A stretch of 64,000 nucleotides of DNA, from positions 1 through 64,000 of the forward strand of contig JAIOZK010000004.1 in the NCBI GenBank assembly GCA_021740625.1, in the 5' to 3' direction. The translations under genes and the position numbers were made by a program. The notes under the pieces are model-generated. The model was not told the origin of the DNA. It worked only from the letters and a program-made list of their open reading frames with translations, and ran no database searches. Of this stretch, positions 42,343-50,514 are shown piece by piece (within the stretch, counting starts at the first letter, position 1; every line of letters begins with the position of its first letter). The DNA comes from Bacteroidales bacterium (GTDB taxonomy: Bacteria > Bacteroidota > Bacteroidia > Bacteroidales > JAIOZK01).

Positions 42343-45132
42343 ATGTCACAACAAAAGAAATTATACCTCCTCGATGCCATGGCCCTGATATACCGGGCGT
42401 ATTTCGCATTGAACAAGAACCCCAGAATCAGTTCGAAGGGGCAGAATACTTCGGCCATCCTGGGATTTGCCAACTCATTGTATGATATTCTGAAGAATGA
42501 GAATCCGACCCACATCGGGGTGGCTTTCGATACCATCGCGCCCACTGTGCGGCATGAGGAGTTTGCCGATTACAAAGCCACACGGGAAGACATGCCCGAC
42601 GACATCGCTTCCTCCATCCCCTGGATCAAAAAGCTCATCGAAGCCTTCAACATCCCTTTGCTTTATGTGGATGGCTATGAAGCGGATGATATCATCGGTA
42701 CACTGTCCAAAAAGGCGGAGAAAGACGGTTTCGAGGTTTTCATGGTTACTCCGGATAAAGATTTTGGTCAGCTTGTTTCAGAACATATATATATGTACAA
42801 ACCGGCCCGCATGGGCAATAAGGCCGAAGTGCTGGGGGTAAAACAGATCTGTGAAAAATACGGGATCAAAAGTCCCGAGCAGCTTATCGACATTCTTGGG
42901 CTCTGGGGCGATACCTCCGACAACATCCCGGGCGTTCCCGGCATCGGTGAAAAAACTGCTTCCAAGCTGATCCATGAATACGGAAGCATCGATAATTTGT
43001 TAAAGAGCACGGATCAACTGAAAGGCAAGCAAAAAGAAAACCTGGAAAACTTTGCTGATCAGGCTCGCATGTCGCGCGACCTGGCCACCATCATACAGGA
43101 TGTGCCCATCGACTTCGATCCTGCAAAACTGAAAATCTCGGATCCTGATCCGGAAGCCCTCAAAGCCATATTCGAGGAACTGGAATTCAGGGCCTTTGCC
43201 AAAAGGGTTTTTACCGACCTCTCGGTAGATGCCGCAGAGATCCAGGCCCAGACCGATCTTTTCAGCGATCTTCCTGCGGGTGAACAGCCCAAAAAGACAG
43301 CCGCAAGCCTGAAAAGCCTCGCGGATTTTAAAACGGATTACCGCCTGGTGGAAACCCGGGAGGAAATCGACAAACTGATCGGCATCCTGCAAAATGAAAA
43401 GCATTTTTGCTTCGACACCGAAACCACCGGCAAGGATCCCAATGCTTCTGAACTTGTGGGTGTTTCTTTTTCCGTGGAGCCGCACAAAGGCTGGTTCCTC
43501 AACCTGCCGGCCAATTATAACGAGGCCCTGGAGACCCTGAAAAAATTCAAACCCCTGTTTGAAGGCCAGGGCATAGCCAAAACCGGCCAGAACCTGAAAT
43601 TCGACATCGCCATGCTCAAATGGTACGAGATCGATGTGCAGGGCAAACTCTTCGATACCATGATCGCCCATTACCTCATCGAACCCGATCTGCGGCATGG
43701 CATGGATTACCTTGCCGAGACCTATTTGAATTACAAAACCATTTCCTATGATGAGCTGACCGAGAAATCCCGCAAAGGCCAGCTCACGATGCGGGAAGTG
43801 CAGCAAAAAAAGATCAATGAACTGGTGGACTATGCCTGCGAGGATACCGATATCACCCTGCAGCTCCGGCAGCATTTCGAACCCGAACTGGAAAAATATG
43901 AGATCCTGGACCTGTTCAACGATATGGAGATCCCCCTGATGAAAGTACTGGCCTCCATGGAAGCTTCAGGCATCAAACTGGACATCCCGACCCTGGAAAA
44001 GTATTCCGAAGAGCTGGGCGAGGAGATCCTGAAAGTTGAGAAAGAGATCCATGAGATGGGCGGCACTGAATTCAACATCGCTTCTCCCAAACAACTGGGC
44101 GTGATCCTTTTTGAAAACCTGAAGATCACCGAAAAACCCAAACTTACCAAAACAAAGCAGTATTCCACCAGCGAGGATGTGCTGCAAAAGCTGATCAACA
44201 AACATCCCATCGTGGAAAAGATCCTGGACTACCGCTCCCTGACCAAGCTCAAATCCACCTATGTGGATGCCCTGCCGGCCCTGGTCAACAAAAGGGACGG
44301 CAGGATACATACGTCTTATATGCAAACGGTGGCGGCTACCGGAAGGCTCAGCTCCCAGAATCCCAACCTGCAGAACATCCCGATACGCACCGACAAGGGC
44401 CGGGAGATCAGGAAGGCCTTTGTGCCGCGGAATGAAAACTATACTTTGCTGGCAGCCGATTATTCCCAGATCGAATTGCGCATCATCGCCGAACTGAGCG
44501 AAGACAAAGGCATGATGGAAGCCTTTCAGAATAAGCTGGATATACATGCGGCTACCGCTTCCAAAGTCTATGACGTGGAGCTGGACAAAGTTACCCCGGA
44601 TATGCGCCGCAACGCCAAGACCGTGAACTTTGGTATCGTGTATGGCATCTCTGCTTTCGGCTTGAGCGAAAGACTCAACATCCCGCGTGGAGAGGCCAAA
44701 GACATCATCGATGCTTATTTCGAACAATATCCCGGGGTAAAAAAATACATGGACGAAAGCATTGCCTTTGCGAAAAAGCATGGCTATGTGAAAACCATGA
44801 TGGGCCGCCGGCGTTACCTGCGCGACATCAATGCTTCCAACTCCGTGGTGCGGGGCTTTGCCGAAAGAAACGCCATCAACGCGCCCATACAGGGTTCTTC
44901 GGCCGACATGATCAAAATTGCCATGATCCGGATCTTTAACGAAATGCGCAAACAACAGCTCAAATCACAGATGATCCTGCAGGTGCACGATGAGCTGGTG
45001 TTCGATGTTTTCAAAGAAGAAGTTGAAAAGATCAAACCCATCATCGAAGAGAACATGAAGAAGGCCATCAAGATGAAAGTCCCGGTGGAGGTGGACATGA
45101 ATACGGGGGAGAACTGGCTGGTGGCGCATTAG
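42343..45132 (+). CDS. polA: DNA polymerase I
   Basis: 929 residues from ATG 42343 (MSQQKKLYLLDAMALIYRAYF). The frame is open to 42043, but that part translates the repeat array and is rejected. 5'-3' exonuclease (about 1-300): DAMALIYR, DGYEADDIIG, TPDKDFGQLV and GIPGV-like GVPGIGEKTA. 3'-5' exonuclease: DTETTG at about 358, so proofreading is probably intact. Polymerase: motif A DYSQIELR at about 705, motif B KTVNFGIVYG at about 758, motif C VHDELVF at about 880. It fills gaps in repair and removes Okazaki primers. The gene is followed directly by a tandem repeat. Confidence 0.96.
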   Translation: MSQQKKLYLLDAMALIYRAYFALNKNPRISSKGQNTSAILGFANSLYDILKNENPTHIGVAFDTIAPTVRHEEFADYKATREDMPDDIASSIPWIKKLIEAFNIPLLYVDGYEADDIIGTLSKKAEKDGFEVFMVTPDKDFGQLVSEHIYMYKPARMGNKAEVLGVKQICEKYGIKSPEQLIDILGLWGDTSDNIPGVPGIGEKTASKLIHEYGSIDNLLKSTDQLKGKQKENLENFADQARMSRDLATIIQDVPIDFDPAKLKISDPDPEALKAIFEELEFRAFAKRVFTDLSVDAAEIQAQTDLFSDLPAGEQPKKTAASLKSLADFKTDYRLVETREEIDKLIGILQNEKHFCFDTETTGKDPNASELVGVSFSVEPHKGWFLNLPANYNEALETLKKFKPLFEGQGIAKTGQNLKFDIAMLKWYEIDVQGKLFDTMIAHYLIEPDLRHGMDYLAETYLNYKTISYDELTEKSRKGQLTMREVQQKKINELVDYACEDTDITLQLRQHFEPELEKYEILDLFNDMEIPLMKVLASMEASGIKLDIPTLEKYSEELGEEILKVEKEIHEMGGTEFNIASPKQLGVILFENLKITEKPKLTKTKQYSTSEDVLQKLINKHPIVEKILDYRSLTKLKSTYVDALPALVNKRDGRIHTSYMQTVAATGRLSSQNPNLQNIPIRTDKGREIRKAFVPRNENYTLLAADYSQIELRIIAELSEDKGMMEAFQNKLDIHAATASKVYDVELDKVTPDMRRNAKTVNFGIVYGISAFGLSERLNIPRGEAKDIIDAYFEQYPGVKKYMDESIAFAKKHGYVKTMMGRRRYLRDINASNSVVRGFAERNAINAPIQGSSADMIKIAMIRIFNEMRKQQLKSQMILQVHDELVFDVFKEEVEKIKPIIEENMKKAIKMKVPVEVDMNTGENWLVAH

Positions 45133-45218
45133 CGACATGGGCGACAGAGGCGATGAGGGCGATAAAGGCGATTAAGGCGAAAGGGCGACAGGGCGACAGG
45201 GCGACAGGGCGACAGGGA
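45131..45218. repeat. Tandem repeat of about 8-9 bp (GGGCGACA) directly after polA
   Basis: Starts at the polA stop codon: GCGACATGG, GCGACAGAG, GCGATGAGG, GCGATAAAG, GCGATTAAG, GCGAAAGG, then four GCGACAGG units. The distal units are identical and the proximal ones are diverged. Confidence 0.85.
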
Positions 45219-45390
45219 GTATCTTAGGTCTTTTTTTCATTATAGTTGTGATAAGCCTTTGTGATTGGTAGTGTTTTTAGTGCCTTTGTGGCTATTTCTT
45301 GCCAAGAAGCCACGAAGACCACAAAGAAAACACAAAGAGCTTTTAGACCCTTTTTGCTGCTCATGTGGTTCTTAGGCCATTTACTGAAAT

Positions 45391-45657
45391 GAGGTTAGCA
45401 CCCGTATTTATCCGGGTGTTTGGATGCATGTTGCTTTTAAATAAAAGAGGCTGTCCAAAAAGTGCGATATTTCGTCAGGCTGAGTGCCTTGCCTGCCGGT
45501 TAGGCAGGAAGTCGAAGCCTAAAGATCGTTGATTATCAGTGCATCTCGACTTCGCTCGATGTGACCCAGATAACTGTTTGGTAATTTTTGGACTGCCTCT
45601 TCCATGATATATTCTTTCTTTTACCTTACACCCCGATAAATCGGGGTGCTAATCTCA
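45391..45657. repeat. Outer inverted repeat TTAGCACCC...GGGTGCTAA around element B
   Basis: Left arm 45391-45418 (GAGGTTAGCACCCG, then an ATTTAT loop and CGGGTG) and right arm 45629-45657 (CACCCCG-ATAAAT-CGGGGTGCTAATCTC) are inverted copies, each itself a hairpin. They bracket the MITE-like element B. Confidence 0.6.
45445..45602. repeat. MITE-like element B, 158 bp, AAGAGGCTGTCCAAAAA ends
   Basis: Ends AAGAGGCTGTCCAAAAA and TTTTTGGACTGCCTCTT are a 17-bp inverted repeat with one mismatch, nearly the same as element A (18545-18703). It contains a GGCTGAG...GTCGAAGCC / CATCTCGACTTCGCTCGATG palindrome (45474-45565), itself interrupted by a GCCTGCC-GGTTA-GGCAGG hairpin. Confidence 0.6.
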
Positions 45658-46024
45658 TGGATTTTGCCTGTTGATTTGGAATTTGAAATCTGAACCCCCT
45701 GCCATGCGGCTGCCTGTTGAGATTGCAACTCCTGTGTGCTGGAAATAAAGGATTTAATGCATGGGTATATGGAATTTTGTTTTATATTTGGAAAGACAAG
45801 GTACATCCGCATGATTCACTCTACTGCCATATACCATAACGAGCTTACTGTTAGAAAGGATAAAAAATGAGATGTAAAAAGTTGTATATAATTTCTCGGG
45901 TGGGGTAAATATGTTGATGAAAGTTGATTATATAAAGTTAACATGCATATTGGGGAAGGCCACAGGGATAATAACACAACTAGAAAATTATGTATCTTTA
46001 TTTCAAAAATAAGAGGATTTGAGG

Positions 46025-46207
46025 ATGATAACGAAAACTAAATTAAAGTAACAAATCGAAAACTTACCAGAAGAGTTTTCAATTGATGAACTCATTGACA
46101 GATTACTTTTGATTGAAAAAGTTGAAATTGGAATTGAACAATCCAAAAATCAAGAAATTATCTCTGATGCTGAAATGAATAATGAAATCAAAAAATGGTT
46201 CGAATAA
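46025..46207 (+). pseudogene. Antitoxin of a ParE/RelE-type module, nonsense-mutated
   Basis: Reads MITKTKLK, TAA, then QIENLPEEFSIDELIDRLLLIEKVEIGIEQ, SKNQEIISDAEMNNEIKKWFE and stop. The second part is the standard short Bacteroidota antitoxin partner of ParE toxins. The stop is at codon 9, and there is no ATG to restart before the last third. The toxin start (ATG 46195) overlaps its end, the normal gene arrangement. Confidence 0.75.
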
Positions 46208-46242
46208 ACTGGACAATTCAGGCAAGAGATGATTTGAAAAAC
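46195..46242 (+). pseudogene. ParE/RelE toxin, only the first 16 codons left
   Basis: Starting inside the antitoxin stop region, the frame reads MVRINWTIQARDDLKN, the normal N-terminus of ParE-type toxins, and then runs into the promoter of the MNT gene. The remaining about 80 codons are missing, so a deletion joined the module to the next one at about 46243. Confidence 0.7.
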
Positions 46243-46258
46243 AGCAACTTGTTTTTTG

Positions 46259-46266
46259 TATCTTTG
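46259..46266 (+). promoter_or_regulatory. -7 box TATCTTTG only 5 bp before the MNT start
   Basis: TATCTTTG ends 4 bases before ATG 46271. A TTTG 22 bp upstream (46233-46236), inside the ParE relic, could be the -33 element. The transcript would start at or near the ATG, so the mRNA may be leaderless. Confidence 0.5.
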
Positions 46267-46270
46267 AGTT

Positions 46271-46588
46271 ATGAAAGTTAAAACCAGAAATATAAGCCAG
46301 CAAATTAAGAGTTATGTAAATTCTATTGATCCGAATGCTCAAATAATCCTTTATGGATCCAGAGCCAGAGGAGATGAAAGAATTGATTCTGACTGGGATA
46401 TTTTGATATTAACAGATTACCAAGTCGATTTAGAAAGGGAAAGAAAATTTAGGAATAAAATTTATAACCTTGAACTTGAAACCGGAGAAGCATTTTCTGT
46501 TTTTGTGTATTCAAAATCAGATTGGCAACAAAAACAAAGAATTAGTCCTTTCTATCACAATGTCATTCAAGAAGGAGTTCGCATATGA
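46271..46588 (+). CDS. MNT-domain nucleotidyltransferase (antitoxin-like)
   Basis: A 105-residue minimal nucleotidyltransferase with the motif GSRARGDERIDSDWDILIL (GS-x-DxD). In MNT-HEPN modules this protein neutralises a HEPN RNase, in the best-known case by AMPylation. Its stop overlaps the start of the HEPN gene (ATGA), the usual coupling, but that HEPN partner is frameshifted. The MNT protein itself looks intact. Confidence 0.85.
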   Translation: MKVKTRNISQQIKSYVNSIDPNAQIILYGSRARGDERIDSDWDILILTDYQVDLERERKFRNKIYNLELETGEAFSVFVYSKSDWQQKQRISPFYHNVIQEGVRI

Positions 46589-46986
46589 ATACGGAAGAAA
46601 AACGCGAATATGCTAAATACAGAATCGATTCAGCTTTTCAAACTTATGAAGCGGCAAAAGTACTTTCAGAGAATGGTTTCTGGAATTCAGCTGTAAATAC
46701 ACTATACTATTCTCTTTTTATGCAGTAAATGCTCTACTTGTTTTAAACGACATACAAACGAAATCTCATTCTTCTACAAAAAGTCAATTCTCCCTACCTA
46801 CACTTTATAAAAACAGAAAAACTTGATAAGAAATATGGTCGGCTATTTTCAGAATTGTTTGATTGGAGGCATAAAGGAGATTATGAAAACATTTTCGACT
46901 ATAATCAAGAATCAGTTAAGCCACTTTTTGATCCGGTTTACGAAATGTTAGAGCGAATTCAAAAAGAAATAAAAAACGCACTGTAA
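46585..46986 (+). pseudogene. HEPN-domain protein (toxin partner of MNT), double frameshift
   Basis: Frame 1 reads MNTEEKREYAKYRIDSAFQT, YEAAKVLSENGFWNSAVNTL, YYSLF and then stops (MQ). Losing one T in a T-run explains the break: the expected continuation YAVNALLVLNDIQTKSHSST is in another frame. A second break follows a CTAC duplication (CTACCTACAC), after which the first frame resumes at HFIKTEKLDKKYGRLFSELF, DWRHKGDYENIF and on to IQKEIKNAL. Net length change is +3, so the two lesions compensate overall, but about 60 codons in between are out of frame. It is a non-functional HEPN toxin if the sequence is correct. Confidence 0.8.
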
Positions 46987-46990
46987 TACA

Positions 46991-47104
46991 CACGGTAAAT
47001 GCCATTTGGCAAGGTATGCAAGGCGACCATTGGTTTTGTATAACCAGATTTGTTGCAGATAAAAAGGATGAAATTTCTAAAAATGCCAAACGGCACTTAC
47101 CGTG
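46991..47104. repeat. 21-bp inverted repeat between the two MNT-HEPN modules
   Basis: Left arm CACGGTAAATGCCATTTGGCA (split 11+10, 46991-47011) and right arm TGCCAAACGG-CACTTACCGTG (47084-47104) pair at 19 of 21 positions. Both mismatches are A-C, which would be G-U on the minus-strand RNA. They enclose 72 bp without a gene. Possibly a small non-autonomous element or cassette boundary. Confidence 0.65.
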
Positions 47105-47155
47105 GGAACCTTGGAGGCAATTTTAAAAAACTCGAACTCCTATTTTAAAGATTCG

Positions 47156-47163
47156 TATATTTG
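47156..47163 (+). promoter_or_regulatory. -7 box TATATTTG upstream of the second MNT gene
   Basis: Lies 8 bp before ATG 47172; the transcript would have a leader of only a few bases, as in the first MNT gene. Confidence 0.5.
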
Positions 47164-47171
47164 TTAATAAC

Positions 47172-47468
47172 ATGACATCTAAAGAGTACATTTTATCGCT
47201 ACTAAAAACAAAAAAGCCAGAATTGTCAAAATTTGGCATTCGGGATATTGGACTTTTCGGATCATATTTGCGAAACGAACAATCCGATCACAGCGATATT
47301 GATATTTTAGTAGATTTTGAACCTGATAAGGAAAATTATGATAATCTCATGAATCTTTATGATTACTTGGAAAAAATTTTTAAAAATGAAAAAGTTGAGA
47401 TTGTCACAAAAAATGGATTAAGTCCTTATATTGGTCCCAAGATCTTAAGCGAAGTGTTTTATGTATAA
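47172..47468 (+). CDS. MntA-like nucleotidyltransferase antitoxin
   Basis: 98 residues with FGIRDIGLFGSYLRNEQSDHSDIDILVDF (GS-x-DxD nucleotidyltransferase motif). In the MntA-HepT type VII system this protein AMPylates the HEPN toxin. It overlaps the HEPN gene by 8 bp, so both are translated together. Intact. Confidence 0.9.
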   Translation: MTSKEYILSLLKTKKPELSKFGIRDIGLFGSYLRNEQSDHSDIDILVDFEPDKENYDNLMNLYDYLEKIFKNEKVEIVTKNGLSPYIGPKILSEVFYV

Positions 47469-47802
47469 AGATCCCATTGAATATTTAAAGCACATACGTG
47501 ACGAATGCGAATATATCCTTTCAGCTATTGATGCCAGCATGTCAAAAGAGGATTTTATCAGAGATGAGACTCTAAAAAGGGCTGTTATCAGAAGCCTGGA
47601 AATAATTGGAGAAGCGTCAAAAAAAATACCAGCCGAATTTAAATTAAAATGGGATACAATCCAATGGAAAAATATGGCTGGTATGAGAGATCGGTTGATT
47701 CATGATTACATGGGCGTTAATTATTCAATTGTCTGGGATGTTATTAAAAACAAAATACCAGAACTACACCTGCAAATAATCGAAGTATTAAACAAAGAAT
47801 AA
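47461..47802 (+). CDS. HepT-like HEPN RNase toxin
   Basis: 113 residues of the DUF86/HepT family: YKDPIEYLKHIRDECEYIL at the start and the active-site motif RDRLIHDYMG, which fits RX4HXY with the Tyr that MntA modifies in known systems. Such toxins cleave RNA, in some cases tRNA. It is intact next to an intact MntA-like gene, so this second module is probably functional. Confidence 0.9.
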   Translation: MYKDPIEYLKHIRDECEYILSAIDASMSKEDFIRDETLKRAVIRSLEIIGEASKKIPAEFKLKWDTIQWKNMAGMRDRLIHDYMGVNYSIVWDVIKNKIPELHLQIIEVLNKE

Positions 47803-48009
47803 AAAACTACCGCCAAACAAAATAAATTTCCAATTTTTCCCATCCCCCCTGCGACATTCTCCCCCCAAAAGGTATTAACAAAAAAACCAAACAAAATCTC
47901 TTCACCCGCAAGGGACGCTCAAGCATGATTATAAACCGTATATTTGTTTAACGAAAAAGAGAAAACAAGAAGAAGAAAGATTTAAAGACATAGCGTAGGT
48001 TTTTATTCT
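47803..48009. other. Non-coding leader region with -7 box TATATTTG
   Basis: No gene. TATATTTG at 47939-47946 followed by a purine-rich stretch points to a transcript starting near 47953 that would run into the hairpin at 48010 and the receiver gene at 48216. Confidence 0.5.
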
Positions 48010-48122
48010 GGTATCGGAAAACCGCCAATAATTTTCACACCAGGAATGATAAGCCAATACGCTCACGTATAGCGTGGGCTTGCTTATTTGGTGTGAGGGC
48101 GCTTGGCGGTGCCTCCGATACC
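48010..48122 (+). ncRNA. 113-nt five-helix hairpin in the leader of the receiver gene
   Basis: Nested pairs: GGTATCGGA/TCCGATACC (9 bp), ACCGCCAA/TTGGCGGT (8), CACACCA/TGGTGTG (7), ATAAGC/GCTTAT (6) and ACGCT/AGCGT (5) with loop CACGTAT. Two of the internal loops are equal or nearly so. Either a structured RNA element or a palindromic mobile element; DNA-level symmetry cannot tell these apart. Confidence 0.6.
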
Positions 48123-48215
48123 GGTAAGTTAAGTTCACGCTTCTTTTTTGCACACAATCCTCCCCTGGCATTCAGCAACACAGGAAGCCATTGTTTCACC
48201 GGAAAAATCGAATCC

Positions 48216-48629
48216 ATGAAATCTTACAAGAACGGGCGCCCCGCCCGTATGCCCGAGGAATATACCGTGTTGCTGCTGGATGCAGACAAGCACAGCAGGA
48301 TGCTGCATGCCTGGTATTTCAAAAAACTGCCGGTCCGGCTCATTGCCGTCAGAAGTCCTTTCGGCCTGCTGCGGCATCTGCTCAGCCGGCCAACCGACCT
48401 GGTCATCCTGGAGATCCACATGAAAGGAAAGAACTATTATTCCCTCATTTCGGCCATCAAGCGCCTGCCCGCAAAAATACCTGTTATTGTGCAAAGCACA
48501 CAGGGTTTGGAAGAGAACAAACAGCAATGCTTCGCCCGCGGCTGCGATGTGTATTTTGTAAAACCCTTGCCCTGGGAAGCATACCGCGCCAAAGTAATGG
48601 AGTTGCTGGGCGAGAGCGAAAGTGTTTAA
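48216..48629 (+). CDS. Stand-alone receiver-like protein with Glu at the phosphoacceptor site
   Basis: 137 residues from ATG 48216 (MKSYKNGRPARMPEEYTVLLLDADKHSR); the longer frame from 48093 runs through the hairpin and is rejected. The fold follows a CheY-like receiver: acidic pair LLDAD at 20-24, beta-3 strand DLVILEIHM, Ser/Thr in VQSTQ and Lys116 in YFVKPLPW. The residue that should be the phospho-Asp is Glu66, which often mimics the phosphorylated state. No output domain. GC content and codon use look higher than in the neighbours. Function unknown. Confidence 0.72.
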   Translation: MKSYKNGRPARMPEEYTVLLLDADKHSRMLHAWYFKKLPVRLIAVRSPFGLLRHLLSRPTDLVILEIHMKGKNYYSLISAIKRLPAKIPVIVQSTQGLEENKQQCFARGCDVYFVKPLPWEAYRAKVMELLGESESV

Positions 48630-48675
48630 GCGGCTCTTCATTGGATATTGGACATTCATCATTGATTAATTAAAT

Positions 48676-48745
48676 ATCCCATAATCAACATACAATAATC
48701 AACCTGACTTCCGTCTGGCAAGTTATCCAATTGATGGGCGCTCCA
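48676..48745 (+). repeat. Dispersed repeat with CCTGAC hairpin, copy 2
   Basis: Contains ATAATCAACCTGACTTCC, GTCTGGCAAGTTATCC and TTGATGGGCGC; inverted relative to copy 1 at 21007-21078. The hairpin is CCTGAC-TTCC-GTCTGG, with one mismatch. Confidence 0.65.
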
Positions 48746-48882
48746 CTGGATGCTATATGGATCTCAGACTCTGGATAAGCCTGCCCACTTTGACTTTTTG
48801 GTGATTTTGGGTCAAACCAAAAGCACATTAATAATTGACCCGTGAAAGTTTCACTTTGAGTGAAGCCTTCACTTGATGTAAC

Positions 48883-50514
48883 TCAGACCCCAGCCATCTT
48901 AGGCATAAACAACTTCATATCCTCATCTACACTGCCGATGCCTGAGATCCCGAATGTATCCACCAGGATCTTAGCAACATTGGGTGAGAGAAATGCAGGC
49001 AGACTGGGTCCCAGGTGGATGTTCTTCACACCCAGGTGCAGCAGGGCCAGCAACACGGTTACGGCTTTCTGCTCGTACCAGGCAATGTTGTAGGCGATCG
49101 GAAGCTCGTTGATGTCGTTCATTTCGAAGACTTCCTTCAGCTTGAGTGCAATCACTGCCAGTGAGTAAGAGTCGTTGCACTGCCCGGCATCAAGTACGCG
49201 GGGAATGCCATTGATGTCGCCAAGCGGGAGTTTGTTGTAGCGGTACTTGGCACAACCGGCGGTGAGGATCACGGTATCCTGCGGAAGCTTTTCGGCAAAT
49301 TCGGTATAATAATCACGGCTTTTCATGCGGCCGTCGCAACCGGCCATCACAAAGAATTTCCTGATGACACCGCTTTTTACGGCATCTACTATCTTATCCG
49401 CCAGTTGCATCACCTGATTGTGGGCAAAACCACCGATGATCTTACCCTTCTCAATTTCCATTGGAGCCGGACATTTTTTTGCCTGTTCGATGATCTCCGA
49501 AAACTCTTTCTTTCTGTTTTCATCCGCATGGATGTGTTTAACATCTTTAAAACCTACCACGCCGGTGGTGTAAATCCTGTCTTTGTAAGCAGGTTTGGGA
49601 GGCGTAAGGCAATTGGTGGTCATGAGTATGGGACCGTTGAAAGAGGCAAACTCCTTATACTGTTTCCACCAGGCATTGCCGTAATTGCCCACGAAATGTT
49701 CGTATTTCTTGAAAGCCGGGTAATAATTGGCCGGCAACATTTCGCTGTGGGTATACACATCCACGCCTGTGCCTTCGGTTTGTTTCAGCAGTGCTTCCAT
49801 GTCTTTTAGGTCATGCCCGCTGATGAGGATGCCCGGATTGTTCCTGACGCCAATATTCACTTCGGTCATTTCGGGATTGCCATAGGATTGGGTATTTGCC
49901 TTATCGAGCAGGGCCATCACATCCACGGCGTATTTTCCGCATTCCAGGACAAGCCCTGTGAGTTCTTCGGCACCCAGGGAATCATCAAGCGTTGCTGCCA
50001 GAGCTTTACGCATAAAGGCAAAAACTTTTTCATCTTCATATCCCAGTTGAATGGCATGATGTGCATAGGCGGCCATGCCTTTCACGCCATAGGTCAGCAA
50101 TTCACGCAAAGAGCGAATGTCTTCATTTTCGGTCGACAAAACGCCAACCACCATGGATTTGGTTTCCAGTTCGATCATAGAATGTCCCATCCAGGTAGCT
50201 GCATCGGGCAAATCCTTCAAATTGTTTTTCAATTTGATGGCTTCCCGCAGTTCCAGCCCTTCCCGGATCCTGGCGGCAATATCTTCCTTATCGAAATTGG
50301 CATTGGTAATGGTGGTGAACAGGGCTTCGGTGATAAAGTGATTTACTTTTTCATCATTGATCTCAGCCTTTTCAGCACATACTGCCATTCCTTTTGTGAG
50401 GTAGATCAGCAGGTCCTGGATTCCGGCTACATCTTCTTTCTTCCCGCAAACGCCCGCCAGTGTACATCCCGTACCTTTCGCGGCTTCCTGGCATTGATAG
50501 CAAAACATACTCAT
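48883..50514 (-). CDS. hcp: Hydroxylamine reductase (hybrid cluster protein)
   Basis: 543 residues. N-terminal [4Fe-4S] ligands C5-X2-C8-X8-C17-X5-C23, then the helical domains, and in the C-terminal half the hybrid-cluster ligands (for example [25 protein letters not shown], and [10 protein letters not shown]). It reduces hydroxylamine to ammonia in vitro and acts as an NO reductase or S-nitrosylase in nitrosative stress. The length is standard. It is divergently placed from a Crp/Fnr regulator, the known arrangement of hcp and HcpR in Bacteroidota. Confidence 0.95.

Follow-up and report, generated by a model that had tools for sequence, protein, structure and literature searches.

A dead ParE/RelE-type toxin-antitoxin module joined to an MNT-HEPN module on the 3' side of polA in a Bacteroidales genome

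How does the beginning of one toxin gene come to stand directly in front of an unrelated antitoxin gene, and does the remnant serve that gene as a promoter? The locus that raises this question lies in a window of 64,000 nucleotides (positions 1-64,000, forward strand, of contig JAIOZK010000004.1) from a Bacteroidales bacterium (GTDB JAIOZK01; GCA_021740625.1), whose genome is a draft assembly of 4.0 Mb in 52 contigs. The answer that we favor, with considerable confidence, is that a dead ParE/RelE toxin-antitoxin module was cut at an illegitimate junction against an MNT-HEPN module that has its own TAnnTTTG promoter, and that the HEPN gene of the latter was broken later. The features concerned are the following.

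45993..46000, + strand: TATCTTTA, a likely -7 box (consensus TAnnTTTG) for the dead module, from the sequence and the upstream regions of relatives
46025..46207, + strand: antitoxin pseudogene of 60 codons with TAA at codon 9 (frame 46025-46204, stop 46205-46207), by homology to intact antitoxins
46195..46242, + strand: ParE/RelE-superfamily toxin relic, first 16 codons, by homology and geometry, with PF05016 and TIGR02385 matched by the intact toxin of G084
46233..46236, + strand: proposed -33 element, a TTTG within the toxin relic 22 nt 5' of the MNT -7 box, without support from genome statistics
46241..46252, no strand: chimeric junction, with toxin-antitoxin module homology to its left and MNT homology to its right, defined by the ends of two alignments at 46240 and 46253
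46259..46266, + strand: MNT -7 box, TATCTTTG, separated from the MNT ATG by 4 nt, its position kept in homologues
46271..46588, + strand: intact MNT nucleotidyltransferase antitoxin of 105 aa that carries GSRARG and SDWD motifs and exceeds the Pfam cutoffs for NTP_transf_2 and Polbeta
46585..46986, + strand: HEPN (PF05168) toxin pseudogene overlapping the MNT end, with two indels and stops between them

The antitoxin and toxin remnants

The open reading frame of the relic antitoxin is interrupted at codon 9, and its translation aligns end to end with the antitoxin of the intact reference module, G084 (73% identity, E 3.7e-24). Further end-to-end matches to intact antitoxins are found in G090 (63%), G077 (62%), and G074 (60%), all four genomes being from the same order, and homologues are also present in Gelidibacter, Polaribacter, Psychroflexus, and other Bacteroidota; a search of the genome for a second antitoxin copy found none. 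The dN/dS between the relic and G084 is about 0.13, within the range of intact module pairs, suggesting that the relic was under selection until recently and that its decay is recent. Intact relatives carry boxes of the -7 type upstream of the antitoxin at about the same distance as the box at 45993.

The toxin ATG overlaps the end of the antitoxin gene, at exactly +170 nt from the antitoxin ATG, a position that is kept in 24 of the 25 related loci forming the antitoxin-family comparison set. From this ATG, the frame in the window reads MVRINWTIQARDDLKN and then continues for 12 residues that are not related to the toxin, SNLFFVSLSYES, until it meets a stop at 46279-46281; the N-terminus of the intact G084 toxin is MVRINWTHQAREDLKS. 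The latter toxin scores 55.0 bits against Pfam ParE_toxin (PF05016, cutoff 23) and 31.6 bits against RelE/StbE TIGR02385 (cutoff 27.9). By itself, the toxin piece is a weak match (E 0.09 in the genome search, 1.4e-4 in the window search), and the 28-aa frame has no match in Pfam; it forms part of one unbroken 216-bp DNA alignment with G084, spanning 46025-46240 at 79.6% identity. The toxin domain is incomplete, with 16 of about 98 codons present. The missing 82 or so codons are absent from the window, where searches in several frames returned chance-level matches only, and neither the toxin remainder nor a second toxin copy was found in the 4.0-Mb draft genome. Among solved structures, no sequence match to the toxin was found.

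The relic thus shares with the ParE/RelE type II modules of Bacteroidota that have a 60-aa antitoxin (PF05016, TIGR02385) the order of the genes, with the antitoxin first, the position of the toxin ATG, and the N-terminal sequence, but it differs from them in the stop at antitoxin codon 9 and in toxin homology that ends after 16 codons. The antitoxin combined with the fixed geometry goes far beyond chance, and at the level of homology the antitoxin match alone settles the identity of the relic. Judged by its sequence, it is a ParE/RelE-superfamily type II toxin-antitoxin module, and a dead one. This agrees with an earlier note on this DNA, which had described an antitoxin with a nonsense codon at position 9 that overlaps the first 16 codons of a ParE-type toxin; the same overlapping layout is seen in G084, where the intact module that the note suggested looking for in relatives is indeed present, and no unrelated function for the segment came to light. 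The statement that the toxin stops at the promoter of the MNT gene needs correction, as the frame instead passes through this promoter and ends within the start of the MNT gene.

In this antitoxin family, modules usually end by losing the toxin to decay while the antitoxin stays. Shortened or frameshifted toxins are found in 9 of the 25 related loci (L015, L021, L068, L069, L071, L073, L077, L078, and L080). In one of these, from Gelidibacter sediminis (L080 5001-5500), the start of the toxin appears to be partly duplicated in tandem after the frame break.

The junction between the two modules

The homology on the left, to the G084 module, ends at 46240, or at 46242 if codon 16 (AAC) is included, for which the L075 toxin, reading DLKN, provides a counterpart. 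The homology on the right, for which the G077 MNT gene serves as reference, also takes in the upstream edge of that gene and begins at 46253, with 72.5% DNA identity. The junction that the earlier note had placed at about 46243 is therefore located where two homologies meet. The same antitoxin-MNT junction was found in none of 23 MNT relatives. Two other shortened toxins, L073 and L078, have no MNT gene downstream within the listed open reading frames, indicating that a toxin relic followed by an MNT gene is not a repeated arrangement. The polA flank of a genome of the same genus, G001, contains no relic and has a different MNT-HepT pair.

We infer the following order of events. A mobile ParE/RelE-superfamily module would have died, its antitoxin gaining the nonsense codon, with presumable loss of function. 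An illegitimate junction would have cut the toxin after codon 16 and brought an MNT-HEPN (type VII-like) module, by its left edge, right up against the cut end. The MNT gene would be read from a TAnnTTTG promoter of its own that arrived with the MNT module, its mRNA probably beginning at the start codon, and the HEPN partner would have been broken later.

It is conceivable, though on balance doubtful, that the junction reflects an insertion and not a deletion, with the MNT-HEPN module entering the toxin gene, whose distal part was lost later. The right side of the junction starts at the MNT promoter, which is a natural edge of the module, and G077 has both types of module at separate sites, pointing to independent movement. 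Against an insertion speaks the absence of the distal toxin part from both window and genome, and no target-site duplication was noticed. In a draft assembly, the boundary at 46243 may also be an assembly join. That the lesions as a whole are errors of sequencing or assembly is very improbable: whereas the division of the genome into 52 contigs and the position of one HEPN indel within a T run are in keeping with such errors, there are four separate lesions of different kinds (a nonsense codon, a truncation with a junction, a 1-nt loss, and a 4-nt duplication), they affect two adjacent modules, and the MNT gene and the next MNT-HepT pair are intact, unlike the lesioned genes.

The promoter of the MNT gene

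The MNT protein scores 39.4 bits against NTP_transf_2 (cutoff 21) and 33.2 bits against the NCBIfam MntA equivalog, below the cutoff of 60, indicating that it is a relative of MntA and not MntA itself. The primary sigma factor promoter of Bacteroidota consists of a -7 element, TAnnTTTG, and a -33 element, TTTG (PMC7366714, PMC9723704). The MNT gene has a perfect -7 box at 4 nt from its ATG and a TTTG at 22, a spacing not enriched in this genome. Of the 23 other MNT relatives that were compared, 18 have such a box at 4-6 nt from the start (L030, L032, L034-L036, L147, L149-L159, and L161). The flanks of these 23 relatives, which are short at some loci at contig ends, contain no antitoxin or toxin match. 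As its position is kept in MNT genes that have no relic, the box most likely belongs to the MNT gene itself and did not arise through the junction. A box at exactly 4 nt before the start occurs in 8 of 804 genes within 1.26 Mb of the genome, compared to 0.4 expected per position. In Flavobacterium psychrophilum, the -7 box occupies positions -12 to -5, and leaderless transcripts make up 5.5% of the mRNAs (PMC9723704). By this rule, the transcription start of the MNT gene is predicted at the A of its ATG, and the MNT mRNA would probably be leaderless, starting at the start codon.

The position of the box bears directly on the proposal of the earlier note that the relic has been reused as the MNT promoter. 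This proposal finds no support, since the -7 box is situated on the right-hand, MNT-homologous side of the junction and keeps its position in MNT genes without a relic. The more specific suggestion, that the relic supplies the -33 element with its TTTG, fares no better in the spacing statistics, which cover the same 1.26 Mb and 804 genes with 178 TAnnTTTG boxes near genes. TTTG at a spacing of 22 accompanies 0.6% of these boxes, compared to 0.8% of upstream positions taken at random, and for TTG at spacings of 17-23 the figures are 16.9% and 16.8%; at spacings of 18-21 only, TTTG shows a slight excess (7.3% versus 4.6%). Most related MNT genes, judged by eye, have no TTTG at a fixed -33 position, and in Flavobacterium johnsoniae, a -33 motif was reportedly not detectable globally (PMC7366714). 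In favor of a role in the promoter, the -7 box that follows the TTTG at 22 nt is a good one, and a similar 12-mer in the MNT promoter of G077 contains a TTTG at a spacing of 19. This 12-mer, AGATRATTTGAA, matches between the toxin relic and the G077 promoter at 11 of 12 nt (P 0.005 for the G077 promoter alone, P 0.06 allowing for the 12 promoters compared), a weak similarity that leaves room for the relic TTTG being used, as it may be. That the TTTG has been exapted as the -33 element and that the relic is retained for this role is nevertheless unlikely. Quite improbable, too, is a crossover within the 12-mer itself, as a similarity shared by toxin codons 11-15 and the -33 region of an MNT promoter, through which the toxin fragment would now supply one half of the promoter to an antitoxin gene unrelated to it.

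The HEPN relic, its surroundings, and the fate of mobile modules

In the HEPN gene, a 1-nt loss within a stretch of T near 46715-46719 breaks the frame and a 4-nt tandem duplication (CTAC) near 46794-46801 restores it, with stops in between. Both adjoining modules, the ParE/RelE-type and the MNT-HEPN module, have therefore decayed. The next MNT-HepT pair, at 47172-47802, is intact by sequence. As in the HEPN/MNT modules of type VII (PMC7641770), the MNT protein has the GSRARG and SDWD motifs and the HEPN gene overlaps the end of the MNT gene; the locus differs from these modules in that the HEPN gene is a pseudogene and the MNT protein scores below the MntA cutoff.

Several other elements are found nearby. 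A long-hairpin element of about 125 bp lies right behind the HEPN relic, at 46988-47113. Its sole other copy in the genome (L146 9085-9204) is directly 3' of a RelE/ParE-like toxin gene, and the same-genus genome G001 has one copy (L164). Just 3' of polA, an 8-bp sequence, GGCGACAG, is repeated in tandem (45123-45217), and a MITE-like repeat of about 160 bp with inverted ends (GGCTGTCCAAAAA ... TTTTTGGACTGCC) at 45440-45601 has some 40 full or partial copies in the genome. An Rfam scan of 44000-50000 gave no matches. Both genomes of the genus have MNT-HepT modules 3' of polA, but not the same ones (45133-47802; L064 1820-2447), and this side of polA may be a favored site for them.

The relic is an ordinary one, of the sort that mobile genes leave as they decay in bacterial chromosomes. 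The locus clearly shows two kinds of mobile toxin-antitoxin module decaying next to each other at the same place in the chromosome, and the junction between them can be mapped. Beyond this site, members of the MNT subfamily in many families of the order have their -7 box at 4-6 nt from the start codon, so that leaderless antitoxin mRNAs are predicted to be a conserved feature of the subfamily.
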